From the IMG/VR virus record IMGVR_UViG_3300017764_000154, positions 1-20,407 of that record: DNA of 20,407 nt. One strand, given 5' to 3'. The position numbers and the translations under genes are program-made. How positions within the stretch are numbered: position 1 is the stretch's first letter; each line of letters opens with the position of its first letter. This document shows positions 72-4,064 of this stretch, piece by piece. Origin of the DNA: a virus. The notes beneath the pieces were generated by a model, which was not told the origin of the DNA, did not search any database, and saw nothing but the letters and a program-made list of their open reading frames with translations.

Positions 72-272
72 TCAGGCAGGCAGCCAGTCTTGCATAAAAA
101 GCTGCAAGTCGTAGGTGTCGTCGGTGTCAGTCTCAGCAACAAGATCGGCGTGTGACATGTCAGCTAGTTGCAACATGTAGTCGTCGGGATGCATAAGGCT
201 GTCGTCGTCATGAGCGAAGAACACGTGCTCTTGATAGAGAGCGGAGCGGAGTTGATCGGCTGTGTAAGTCAT
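72..272 (-). CDS. Small, extremely acidic early protein (66 aa), unknown function
   Basis: I do not recognise this protein. It has 15 Asp/Glu, one Arg and no Lys in 66 residues, giving a net charge near -14, with a DDD run at residues 22-24 and a TDTDD stretch at 47-51. It has no signal peptide or membrane segment. The ATG lies exactly where RNA from a sigma70-type promoter (279-307) is expected to start, so the mRNA may be leaderless. No later start is plausible, because the next Met is residue 27. It follows the 55-aa gene after a 50-bp gap that is entirely promoter. Small, very acidic early phage proteins include DNA mimics such as T7 Ocr and other host-takeover inhibitors. That role here is inference from charge and position only. 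Confidence 0.75.
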   Translation of the reverse strand: MTYTADQLRSALYQEHVFFAHDDDSLMHPDDYMLQLADMSHADLVAETDTDDTYDLQLFMQDWLPA

Positions 273-278
273 GAACTA

Positions 279-307
279 AGTATGGCAGAAAATGAGTGAG
301 AAGTCAA
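279..307 (-). promoter_or_regulatory. Sigma70-type extended -10 promoter P1
   Basis: On the minus strand, TTGACT (307-302) is separated by exactly 17 nt from CATACT (284-279), and TGC just before the hexamer gives an extended -10. The hexamer ends 6 nt before the ATG of the 66-aa gene. A start at the usual +7 position would be the A of ATG. The promoter lies directly after the stop codon of the 55-aa gene. It is near-duplicated at 497-525. Confidence 0.8.
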
Positions 308-322
308 GAGGTAGTGGACACT
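279..322 (-). repeat. Duplicated promoter cassette, copy 1 (44 bp)
   Basis: This 44-bp block aligns without gaps to 497-540 at 33 of 44 positions. The conserved parts are AGTG at the start, CAC and ACC, then CTTGACTT around the -35 and an uninterrupted TCTGCCATACT at the -10. Most of the spacer has diverged. Conservation extends upstream of the -35, so the two copies look like a duplicated regulatory cassette rather than two chance promoters. Confidence 0.7.
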
Positions 323-490
323 TCACCAATTGACTAACCACGTACCTTCGTTAGCACCAGCGGCACGAGCAGCACGACGAGCAGCAGTAGCAGCACGCTC
401 GGCAGCGAGACACTCAGCAGCAATACTAGCAAGGCGAGCATCAGAAGCATAGACGCCGTTGGAGTTGAAGCGGATGGGTTGTTTGTTCAT
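323..490 (-). CDS. Small Ala/Arg-rich early protein (55 aa), unknown function
   Basis: This is a short reading frame starting MNKQPIRF and ending TWLVNW. Residues 17-45 are dominated by Ala with regularly spaced Arg and Glu, which predicts a long amphipathic helix. It shows no signal peptide or Cys-based zinc motif. It is supported by its own extended -10 promoter (497-525), whose -10 ends 6 nt before the ATG, and by the second promoter starting right after its stop. It is an early-type gene between the 60-aa basic protein and the 66-aa acidic protein. I do not recognise a family. A helical nucleic-acid-binding or protein-binding peptide is possible, but this is only inferred from composition. 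Confidence 0.65.
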   Translation of the reverse strand: MNKQPIRFNSNGVYASDARLASIAAECLAAERAATAARRAARAAGANEGTWLVNW

Positions 491-496
491 GCTGTT

Positions 497-525
497 AGTA
501 TGGCAGAGATCAGGTGGAAAGTCAA
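497..525 (-). promoter_or_regulatory. Sigma70-type extended -10 promoter P2
   Basis: On the minus strand, TTGACT (525-520) is followed after 17 nt by CATACT (502-497) with an upstream TGC. The ATG at 490 begins 6 nt beyond the hexamer, as in P1, so a leaderless transcript is expected. It sits in the 49-nt gap after the stop of the 60-aa gene. Confidence 0.8.
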
Positions 526-540
526 GCGGTGGTGTGCACT
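497..540 (-). repeat. Duplicated promoter cassette, copy 2 (44 bp)
   Basis: Partner of the block at 279-322 (33 of 44 identical, no gaps). Identity is concentrated in the -35 region, the TCTGCCATACT block and a short upstream element beginning AGTG. Confidence 0.7.
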
Positions 541-722
541 TACTGAACTGGTTGGTAGTATGTGTGTTCTACGCTGTTGCTGATTTCATGATGTTGAACA
601 CCGTTGATCTTTGCTGGTTTGTTACGCTTACCTTTTGGTACTTTGTTACACCATAGCAGCGTTTTGATTGGTTTACTGCCGCGTGTGAATGTGACATCTT
701 TGAGTTTAACTTTAGTTGTCAT
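540..722 (-). CDS. Small basic early protein (60 aa), unknown function
   Basis: The protein begins MTTKVKLKDV and is Lys/Arg-rich through residues 1-38, with KGKRNKPAK near 32-40. The C-terminal third is more neutral and contains His and Tyr. There are no zinc pairs, signal peptide or membrane segment. I chose ATG 722 over an in-frame TTG one codon upstream because ATG 722 overlaps the TGA of the preceding gene (TGATG), a usual translational-coupling arrangement. It should be co-transcribed with that gene from P3. The charge pattern would fit nucleic-acid binding, but no family is recognised. Confidence 0.6.
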   Translation of the reverse strand: MTTKVKLKDVTFTRGSKPIKTLLWCNKVPKGKRNKPAKINGVQHHEISNSVEHTYYQPVQ

Positions 723-1074: not shown

Positions 1075-1103
1075 AGTATTGCACGGATCACTGCACATGT
1101 CAA
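1075..1103 (-). promoter_or_regulatory. Sigma70-type promoter P3, consensus -35
   Basis: On the minus strand, TTGACA (1103-1098, a perfect -35) is followed after 17 nt by AATACT (1080-1075) with TGC immediately upstream, an extended -10. It should drive the 109-aa and 60-aa genes. It is the first strong host-type promoter reached after the late genes and lies just downstream of three palindromes (1124-1185). Confidence 0.8.
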
Positions 1104-1123
1104 GCGTTCTACGATTAGTACTG

Positions 1124-1141
1124 CTTATCATTGTTGATAAG
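1124..1141. promoter_or_regulatory. Palindrome, 7-bp arms and 4-nt centre (operator candidate)
   Basis: CTTATCA and TGATAAG are perfect inverted arms around TTGT. The site is centred about 30 bp upstream of the P3 -35 element. Size and position fit a dimeric regulator site, although a small RNA hairpin is possible. Confidence 0.45.
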
Positions 1142-1150
1142 ATGCTCTAA

Positions 1151-1162
1151 TGTGTGCACACA
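1151..1162. promoter_or_regulatory. Perfect 12-bp palindrome (operator candidate)
   Basis: TGTGTGCACACA is self-complementary with no loop. It therefore fits a protein-binding site better than an RNA hairpin. It lies between two other palindromes, with centres about 24 and 20 bp away. Confidence 0.4.
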
Positions 1163-1168
1163 GATGTT

Positions 1169-1185
1169 TTGAGAATCGTTCTCAA
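1169..1185. promoter_or_regulatory. 17-bp palindrome resembling a Fur-type box
   Basis: TTGAGAA and TTCTCAA are perfect 7-bp arms around TCG. The core TGAGAATCGTTCTCA resembles the 7-1-7 type of Fur box, with one departure from symmetric TGAGAAT-N-ATTCTCA. Binding by host Fur is inference; an unrelated dimeric repressor is equally possible. Confidence 0.4.
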
Positions 1186-1224
1186 TAACAATAACACGCA
1201 CTAAGTATCACTAACTGTGTCTGC

Positions 1225-1318
1225 CGCTCGCGCTACGCGCTCGCTTTATTTGCGCCAGGTTAGCGATGCTTTGCCCTGTGCAATACTGCGCCAACGTTGT
1301 TAGCGAGCGTAGCGAGCG
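1225..1318. repeat. GC-rich long-range inverted repeat (imperfect 17-bp stem)
   Basis: The right arm 1302-1318 is two near-copies of AGCGAGCGT. All 17 of its bases can pair with 1225-1245, whose arm has two extra 2-nt bulges. The innermost 8 bp (AGCGAGCG with CGCTCGCT) pair perfectly. The loop is about 56 nt. The GC content contrasts sharply with the AT-rich sequence on its right. Possible roles are a terminator without a U-tract, an RNase processing site, or a structure at the packaging terminus. Confidence 0.5.
1251..1306. repeat. Degenerate direct repeat TGCGCCA ... GTTAGCGA
   Basis: TGCGCCA occurs at 1251-1257 and 1287-1293, and GTTAGCGA at 1259-1266 and 1299-1306. The order is the same in both copies, but the gap between the two motifs differs (1 versus 5 nt). 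It lies mostly within the loop of the long inverted repeat. Confidence 0.4.
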
Positions 1319-1319
1319 A

Positions 1320-1349
1320 CCTAATTATAATTAACAACAATCCTAATTA
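1320..1349. repeat. AT-rich direct repeat CCTAATTA with palindrome
   Basis: CCTAATTA occurs at 1320-1327 and 1342-1349, 22 bp apart (about two helical turns). A perfect palindrome, TAATTATAATTA, lies at 1322-1333. The sequence is easily melted and adjoins the GC-rich hairpin. No function can be assigned. Confidence 0.35.
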
Positions 1350-1359
1350 ATTTGTATTT

Positions 1360-1389
1360 TTTATACCCCTATGGGGGATTTATTTGTAA
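1360..1389 (-). promoter_or_regulatory. Weak promoter-like pair with a GC dyad in the spacer
   Basis: On the minus strand, TTACAA (1389-1384) and TATAAA (1365-1360) are 18 nt apart, and the spacer holds CCCC-ATA-GGGG (1366-1376 region). The -35 overlaps the end of the small ORF after thyX. Alternatively the dyad is a poor terminator; on the minus strand it is followed by an A-rich rather than a T-rich tract. Low certainty. Confidence 0.25.
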
Positions 1390-2240: not shown

Positions 2241-2290
2241 GAAGGAAGGAGGAAGGTTGTCGTTAAGACAACCGCCGAGTTCCTTCCTTC
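2241..2290 (-). promoter_or_regulatory. Two-tier hairpin between terL and thyX
   Basis: The outer arms 2241-2250 and 2281-2290 are perfectly complementary over 10 bp (GAAGGAAGGA with TCCTTCCTTC). The inner arms 2255-2261 and 2267-2273 are perfectly complementary over 7 bp (GGTTGTC with GACAACC) around a 5-nt loop. An asymmetric internal loop of 4 and 7 nt separates them. No run of T follows on the minus strand, so this is not a classic intrinsic terminator. A processing site of the RNase III kind used in T7 mRNAs, or an mRNA 3'-end stabiliser, would fit. Confidence 0.6.
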
Positions 2291-2291
2291 G

Positions 2292-2322
2292 CAGGAGTCG
2301 GGTCCACCCTTCCCTTCTCCTG
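2292..2322 (-). repeat. Second inverted repeat after the terL stop
   Basis: CAGGAG (2292-2297) and CTCCTG (2317-2322) are perfect 6-bp arms around 19 nt. It lies immediately upstream, in reading direction, of the two-tier hairpin, and the two could stack or compete. The stem is short, so significance is modest. Confidence 0.35.
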
Positions 2323-2339
2323 TATAGGTCCGCCATCGC

Positions 2340-4064
2340 TCAAACCCAGTTGGGGACTGAGTTGTTACCACCACCTTTTGCCTGTTGTCTTTGCTCGTAA
2401 TTCATACCTAAAACCATATAATTTGCAGAGGATTGAGGGTCGTCAATAAACTCTGCTAACATTTGATTCCACTCATTACGTTTACGTTCTTTGATTGCTT
2501 CTTGGGCTGATATACCCATTGCATCTGTAAAGTACTTAACGCCTTGAGCAAGACAGTCAATTCTGTCGTCGTGTTTAACTGCACCCTTCTCACGACACAT
2601 TCTACTCATTTGGTAGAACAACATGTACATTAGTCTACGTTCAGGAGCTTCGTCGGGGTTAGACCGGAAGTCCCACTCGATAACGGACTTGTCAACAACG
2701 AGTCGGTGTTGATTGAGGACGGGTTCGAGGGAATCAATGATTCGATCTTCTTTTCTAACAGTTGCTCTGACTTCTTCAACATCGCATCTTTGATTAGTTT
2801 GTTGGAGGTGTTTTCGGAACAACTCGCTAACAATACCGTCGCCAAAGTTAGTTTCAATGACAAGCTTAGATACTTCATACTTTTTACAACCTTTTAGAAT
2901 GTCCAGTAATGTTTTGTCTGAGTATCCATCTCGGTAAGCACGCATTTCGTGCAAGTACAGGATACCATTACGTTGGGATATATAAGCTGCTGTCGTTTCA
3001 TCCGAGCCACGACCCGACGGGTCAACACTGCAGATTGTTTCGCTGTAAGAGTCCCAGTCTCCCTGTAACTGCATTGGACTGTAGAAATAATCTCCAGGTA
3101 GTCCGACAGTGGGGAGGTCCTTGATAACGTTTTTTGGGTCTGAGCACCAGATGACGGACTCAGGAGCAGACTTAGGGTTAACAGAGGTAACGATAAGGTC
3201 CGCACATTTAAGAGGAAATTTGTCAGCATCGGATAGGCTTGTGTCTAACATGAACTGCAACATAAAGTTGCTACGACCCATGGACGCTTCACGTTCAATC
3301 AGGTCTTCATTATCAAAGCGGTCATCTGTTACGTCCCATTTATCAGCACCTTTCTCAATATCTTCGACCAGCTGAGGCGCTAGAAGACCTTCGTAATTGC
3401 TTGTCTTACGTGGATACCGAGCAGGCCATACAAAGGGCTTGTATGACCGCTCAGCAAGGCGCTTATAGACGGTAAACGTAGTCTGAGGGGTACCTAAGTA
3501 CATAATACGTGAATCATCCTTTGGTGTGAGGATAGATTCAGCTTCTGTACAAAGTTGTAGGAGCTTCTCTCTCATTAACTCCGTCATTGAGTTACCAGGA
3601 ACTTCAATGTCGTCTAGAATCATTAGGTCGGCGCGAGAGCCCGTCAACTGACCTGTGATTCCAACGGACTTTACGCTTGGGGCTTGGTGGGGTGAGCACT
3701 TCACATCGAAGCTTACCCTGCTCCACCTTGCATCGTCTCCAGTCGGTCGTAAATGAGAAAGCCATAACGTTTCAATGATAAGTTTTTGTAGAAAGATAGA
3801 CATGTTATCTGCACGTTCTTTAGACGCGGAGATAATCATAATCTTTCGCTCTGGATCGTTAAACAAAGTCCAGAGAACAAATGCGCCTGTGATCCACGAC
3901 TTACCAACTCCACGGAAAGCCTGTATCTGAAGACGCTTAGGTCCATGTTGAAGATAGTCTGCGATTGCATATTGCGCACGTGTAGGATTGGGTAGATCAA
4001 GCTCCGCCCACAGAGCCTGTAGGAAGAGCTTAAAGTCACCTTGTAAAAGGTCTAGTGTATTCAT
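2340..4064 (-). CDS. terL: Terminase large subunit, T7 gp19-like (574 aa)
   Basis: This is the ATP-driven motor and nuclease that cuts concatemeric DNA and pumps it into the prohead through the portal. The ATPase domain has a Walker A-like AFRGVGKSW at residues 49-57, Walker B LMILDD at 147-152 followed by catalytic E154, and a coupling motif GTPQT at 191-195. The C-terminal RNase H-like nuclease domain has CSVDPSGRGSDET (D348), ETNFGDG (E404) and HDDRIDCLAQ (D499, D500, D503). Its length fits T7 gp19 (586 aa), and the protein appears full-length and intact. The ATG overlaps the TGA of the upstream gene (ATGA), so translation is probably coupled. Confidence 0.97.
   Translation of the reverse strand: MNTLDLLQGDFKLFLQALWAELDLPNPTRAQYAIADYLQHGPKRLQIQAFRGVGKSWITGAFVLWTLFNDPERKIMIISASKERADNMSIFLQKLIIETLWLSHLRPTGDDARWSRVSFDVKCSPHQAPSVKSVGITGQLTGSRADLMILDDIEVPGNSMTELMREKLLQLCTEAESILTPKDDSRIMYLGTPQTTFTVYKRLAERSYKPFVWPARYPRKTSNYEGLLAPQLVEDIEKGADKWDVTDDRFDNEDLIEREASMGRSNFMLQFMLDTSLSDADKFPLKCADLIVTSVNPKSAPESVIWCSDPKNVIKDLPTVGLPGDYFYSPMQLQGDWDSYSETICSVDPSGRGSDETTAAYISQRNGILYLHEMRAYRDGYSDKTLLDILKGCKKYEVSKLVIETNFGDGIVSELFRKHLQQTNQRCDVEEVRATVRKEDRIIDSLEPVLNQHRLVVDKSVIEWDFRSNPDEAPERRLMYMLFYQMSRMCREKGAVKHDDRIDCLAQGVKYFTDAMGISAQEAIKERKRNEWNQMLAEFIDDPQSSANYMVLGMNYEQRQQAKGGGNNSVPNWV

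Follow-up and report, generated by a model that had tools for sequence, protein, structure and literature searches.

Host-type early promoters, similar to sigma-70 promoters, were described for the T4-like cyanomyoviruses S-PM2 and Syn9 (PMC2984593), and host-type early promoters were also described for Ma-LMM01 (PMC5780444). In S. elongatus UTEX 2973, 19 start sites were assigned as leaderless (PMC6091082), and leaderless starts were considered probable in Prochlorococcus (PMC5607370). The AR9 paper notes that leaderless transcripts are common in phages (PMC5312081). Leaderless translation is favoured when the 5' end is near, when the start region has little structure and when CA repeats lie downstream (PMC9031893). 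Our literature search, mostly of work outside subscription journals, yielded no publication on leaderless early genes of cyanophages, and mapped 5' ends for T7-like cyanophages were absent from the literature found.

The window (the whole stretch of DNA analyzed, a contig of 20,407 bp) represents part of a T7-like cyanophage genome and is read on the minus strand. Its nearest named relatives, both in the Autographiviridae, were the Synechococcus phage S-RIP1 and the uncultured MedDCM-OCT-S04-C24; the phage is a marine, Synechococcus-type member of this T7-like group. Two promoter cassettes occupy the low end of the window, beyond TerL and the 209-aa ORF; this part corresponds to the early region that precedes the RNA polymerase (RNAP) gene in the relatives. 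The window contig ends ahead of this gene. In relatives whose contigs carry RNAP or TerL, the cassettes followed TerL and preceded RNAP, all on one strand, and in those with both genes they were upstream of and co-directional with RNAP, as in the early region of Autographiviridae. The features are as follows:

2340-4064, TerL
1543-2172, 209-aa ORF, occupying the thyX position of the relatives
1075..1103, minus strand, leadered early promoter, the first in the region, TTGACA-17-AATACT with TG, putative +1 at 1068
ATG at 1051, minus strand, Kyano_Gp96 gene (PF23790), behind the leadered promoter 1103..1075
526..550, minus strand, conserved upstream element of promoter 1 (-60 to -36), consensus CA-N10-TGTCCACTACCGC, holding the TAA at 542-540 of the preceding ORF
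497..525, minus strand, promoter 1, -35 TTGACT (525-520), 17-nt spacer ending in TGC, extended -10 CATACT (502-497)
491..496, minus strand, discriminator of promoter 1, AACAGC, 6 nt, from the -10 to the ATG
323..490, minus strand, early gene 1 (55 aa, phrog_10986), ATG 490-488, putative +1 at the A at 490
308..332, minus strand, conserved upstream element of promoter 2 (-60 to -36), consensus CA-N10-TGTCCACTACCGC, holding the TGA at 325-323 of gene 323-490
279..307, minus strand, promoter 2, -35 TTGACT (307-302), 17-nt spacer ending in TGC, extended -10 CATACT (284-279)
273..278, minus strand, discriminator of promoter 2, TAGTTC, 6 nt
72..272, minus strand, early gene 2 (66 aa, acidic, phrog_734), ATG 272-270, putative +1 at the A at 272

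A non-coding stretch (window 1090-1380) that separates the 209-aa ORF from the early genes carries GC-rich inverted repeats (GTCGCTCGCTACGCTCGC... and GAGCGCGTAGCGCGAGC), and it is possibly a genome-end or replication region.

The sequence-only reading had described these cassettes as duplicated host-type promoters, each starting at the stop of the gene before it and each followed by one tiny leaderless gene. Both were found on the minus strand with every element it had listed: 33 of 44 bases are identical between 279-322 and 497-540, and both cassettes have a 17-nt spacer, TGCCATACT as extended -10 and a 6-nt gap to the ATG. The preceding stops were located as well (TAA at 542-540 and TGA at 325-323), with their first base at -52 and -53. 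TTGACT-17-CATACT with TG agrees with what is expected of a sigma-70-type promoter (-35 and -10 hexamers spaced by 16-18 nt, or an extended -10), with 9 of 12 matches in each cassette. Both small proteins belong only to PHROGs families of unknown function, and neither had a match in Pfam. Promoter-like matches were about as frequent in the window as in shuffled sequence (37 versus 35.9 +/- 5.8 expected). A single match is therefore ordinary, and a comparative test was needed.

IMG/VR (2.9 million contigs) was scanned for the promoter together with an ATG at a gap of 5, 6 or 7 nt. The 6-nt gap gave 69 stretches, the 7-nt gap one, and the 5-nt gap none. The -10 thus stands at a fixed distance upstream of the ATG, as proposed for leaderless genes, and the expectation that related phages would carry this promoter 6 nt before an ATG was borne out. 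That the promoters are chance matches, as the shuffles alone might suggest, has a negligible probability, and this explanation was rejected since the exact arrangement is conserved over dozens of contigs. The same IMG/VR collection was also scanned with the ATG left out of the pattern (TTGACTT-N13-TGCCATACT), which gave at least 130 distinct sites. Among the matches listed, 64 of 130 distinct sites had the ATG at offset 6, and none had it at 5, 8 or 9. In bacterial genomes, this pattern was followed by an offset-6 ATG at 5 of 121 sites (Fisher p = 2.9e-17 against the viral count among the matches listed, a nominal value because the sites come from related phages). One of the five bacterial sites was on a MAG contig resembling the same phage group. 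Three such promoters were seen on a contig filed under a Crocinitomicaceae MAG (L177, PACT01000003.1), which is probably a cyanophage binned there by mistake. The related viral pattern TTGACA-N14-TGCTATACT had the offset-6 ATG at 12 of 137 sites, so a milder preference may exist elsewhere.

Because the sites are related, the number of independent gene clusters is a better measure than the p values. The 64 ORFs behind an offset-6 ATG, among the matches listed, formed 14 clusters by BLASTP. About 12 of these were convincing families, and the two less convincing ones were a 7-codon ORF and a non-cyanophage-like singleton. ORF length was at least 40 aa in 61 of the 64, again among the matches listed. 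Dozens of related viruses show this exact placement, in front of about a dozen unrelated genes, which argues that the messages of the tiny early genes are probably made without a leader.

At least 29 distinct tandem pairs were found. In most of them phrog_734 occupied the second slot, and the first slot held one of several unrelated tiny genes. Contigs L078 and L119 had three units of promoter and tiny gene; in both, a further 56-aa gene (MMNNKTTNPYASYIL...) is placed in front. The relatives thus agree with the proposed modular layout of one promoter per tiny gene in tandem. Furthermore, since the slots behind this promoter are filled by tiny genes that are unrelated to one another, promoter plus ATG appears to be an exchangeable module. 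The term duplicated holds in part: the promoters are a shared, repeated element, but they are not the product of a recent tandem duplication. Promoters within one locus were 68% similar and those of different loci 67-71%, and the genes behind them (phrog_10986 and phrog_734) are unrelated, which points to a shared constrained element. The cassette was absent from the cultured T7-like cyanophages S-SBP1, KBS-P-1A and S-TIP37, and is therefore not general.

The transcription start was considered from base preferences. Starts are usually preceded by a pyrimidine at -1 and fall on a purine at +1. At the 64 sites among the matches listed, the ATG followed a C in 54 cases and a T in 10. Of the leadered genes that this promoter precedes, 37 of 38 among the matches listed had a purine as the seventh base after the -10. 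Both observations are consistent with a +1 at the seventh base, and we infer that this base, the A of the ATG in the cassettes, is the transcription start. Initiation 1-5 nt upstream of the ATG, giving near-leaderless messages, is unlikely: start sites of sigma-70 promoters commonly vary by 1-2 nt, but a pyrimidine followed by A was present at all 64 listed sites, and the purine stands at the same place in the leadered genes.

One promoter type would serve both uses in this phage: promoter 1103..1075 is leadered, and the two cassettes have leaderless geometry. In relatives, the leader of the corresponding promoter contains GGAG. Other genes behind the same promoter have leaders of about 17-22 nt, and their predicted +1 likewise falls on the seventh base. 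A second upstream element, ATAAGCAnnACTnATC (window 1075-1128, minus strand), precedes the leadered promoter at the same distance, and it also precedes many sites on other contigs of the scan. The CA-N10-TGTCCACTACCGC block before the -35 is common to T7-like and T4-like cyanophages, with C-60 and G-47 invariant across 69 sites, and it may be a candidate for activator binding. A dyad operator or RNA hairpin was rejected for this upstream region: the dyad, centred at -53.5, is weak, and its inner positions do not covary.

Homologues, annotated starts and codon-position changes agree with the offset-6 ATG as the true start of the downstream gene, except in contig L075 and in three T4-like phages. 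Annotated starts coincided with offset 6 in S-RIP1, MedDCM-OCT-S04-C24 (GU943054) and S-BM3. The homologue of gene 323-490 in MedDCM-OCT-S04-C24 (GU943054, CDS 707-874) is annotated from the same ATG, and the phrog_734 homologues of S-RIP1 (CDS 24003), GU943054 (CDS 925) and the T4-like S-RIM12 have the same Met as their annotated start. The same start Met (MNYTKEQLIDAL) was present in T4-like phage homologues of the phrog_734 gene whose operons do not have this promoter. In two families, changes directly after the ATG were mainly at the third codon position. In the T4-like phages S-RIM12, ACG-2014g and S-CAM8, the offset-6 ATG is in frame with a later ATG picked by the annotators. In L075, it opens only a 7-codon ORF ahead of the real phrog_734 gene; an extra stretch (2280-2360, minus strand) shifts the phrog_734 start downstream there, and the stop of the 7-codon ORF overlaps the real ATG (TGATG).

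Shine-Dalgarno (SD) tetramers were present at 0 of 64 sites among the matches listed. This absence alone is weak support because control cyanophage genes rarely carry an SD either (39 of 221). C+A made up 0.76 of codons 2-9 (197 control starts: 0.57), and folding of the first 40 nt gave an MFE of -1.4 kcal/mol versus -4.7 kcal/mol in controls. Part of this C/A-rich, unstructured-start signal may be due to relatedness of the genes.

Two further explanations accept the promoters as real. The 6-nt gap could simply have been inherited if promoter and ATG spread together as a recombination module, with leaderless translation having no role of its own. The exchangeable genes behind one promoter, the frequency of tandem units and the origin of the contigs from related phages agree with inheritance. 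However, members of one family differ at 17-49% of discriminator positions while the discriminator length is constant, boxes other than CATACT (TATCAT, TATTAT) likewise keep the 6-nt gap (8 of 22), and the distance from the stop to the promoter ranges from -4 to 173 nt while the promoter-ATG gap does not vary. C/A-rich, unstructured gene starts across families also speak against inheritance alone, and this explanation is improbable. The small genes could also be translated mainly from leadered readthrough mRNA begun at 1103..1075, with the internal promoters as weak boosters. All genes are co-directional, the scan saw no terminator-like site on the minus strand from 1103 to 243, and the host translates many genes without an SD (PMC5607370). 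Readthrough as the main source is nevertheless rather unlikely, since it leaves the exact 6-nt gap, the -1 pyrimidine and the conserved internal promoters unexplained.

The cassettes are best read as host sigma-70-type early promoters that probably make leaderless mRNAs in exchangeable one-gene modules. The relatives support the host-type promoter, the leaderless geometry and the early position that the sequence-only reading had proposed. Its further suggestion, that early genes could stay expressed in this way while ordinary initiation is impaired, is speculative. In the predicted sequence of events, unmodified host RNA polymerase would transcribe the 55-aa and 66-aa genes after injection, ahead of phage RNA polymerase synthesis. 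The cassettes would be recognized through the primary sigma factor of the host, and transcription would begin on the A of the ATG to give a leaderless mRNA. Ribosomes would then start at the 5'-terminal AUG without an SD, aided by the unstructured, C/A-rich coding start. Readthrough from the leadered promoter 1103..1075 may add further, thus possibly leadered, transcripts. In related phages, unrelated tiny genes are exchanged in the slots behind the promoter, and the modules sit between the terminase and RNA polymerase genes. A more far-reaching and tentative idea, which we consider possible but doubtful, is a dedicated leaderless first wave: two unrelated families of marine Synechococcus phages would share the promoter module, its distance to the ATG would serve leaderless translation, and tiny host-takeover genes would be swapped behind it.

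Leaderless mRNAs are known, yet few of them have been mapped in cyanobacteria. With about twelve unrelated families behind it, the recurring module would offer a natural experiment on how leaderless messages are translated, and it would correct or confirm the start codons of many tiny phage genes. It also points to a position at which probable host-takeover genes are traded among phages. Since S-RIP1 is in culture, the cassette is directly testable.

Compared with known systems, the early regions of S-RIP1 and MedDCM-OCT-S04-C24 are direct relatives, with one (CDS 24003) and two (CDS 707, 925) cassettes of leaderless geometry, respectively; their genes are annotated only as hypothetical proteins and the promoter is unannotated. 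The T4-like S-RIM12, S-RIM2, S-RIM8, ACG-2014g and S-CAM8 have the same -10 block and the TGTCCAC upstream element, but T4-like instances are mostly leadered (about 18 nt: ATAAGA-GTCAAA...ATG), and a few have an offset-6 ATG. In the first 50 kb of Syn9 the pattern was absent, save one non-family match. Leaderless mRNAs of bacteria and phages (lambda cI; PMC9031893) resemble the cassette messages in the AUG at the 5' end, which is predicted here, and in the lack of an SD, the unstructured start and the CA repeats. In 'TA-led' genes (PMC3160421), the -10 likewise lies some 12 nt upstream of the start codon. The textbook leaderless case in phages is a single repressor gene, whereas here many phages share one promoter module in front of a series of tiny lytic early genes with predicted 5' ends. 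The host-type early promoters of T7-like phages (Autographiviridae) are likewise sigma-70-like, lie upstream of the RNA polymerase gene and serve small early genes. Unlike them, the cassette promoter is placed exactly at the start codon and is repeated before individual genes.
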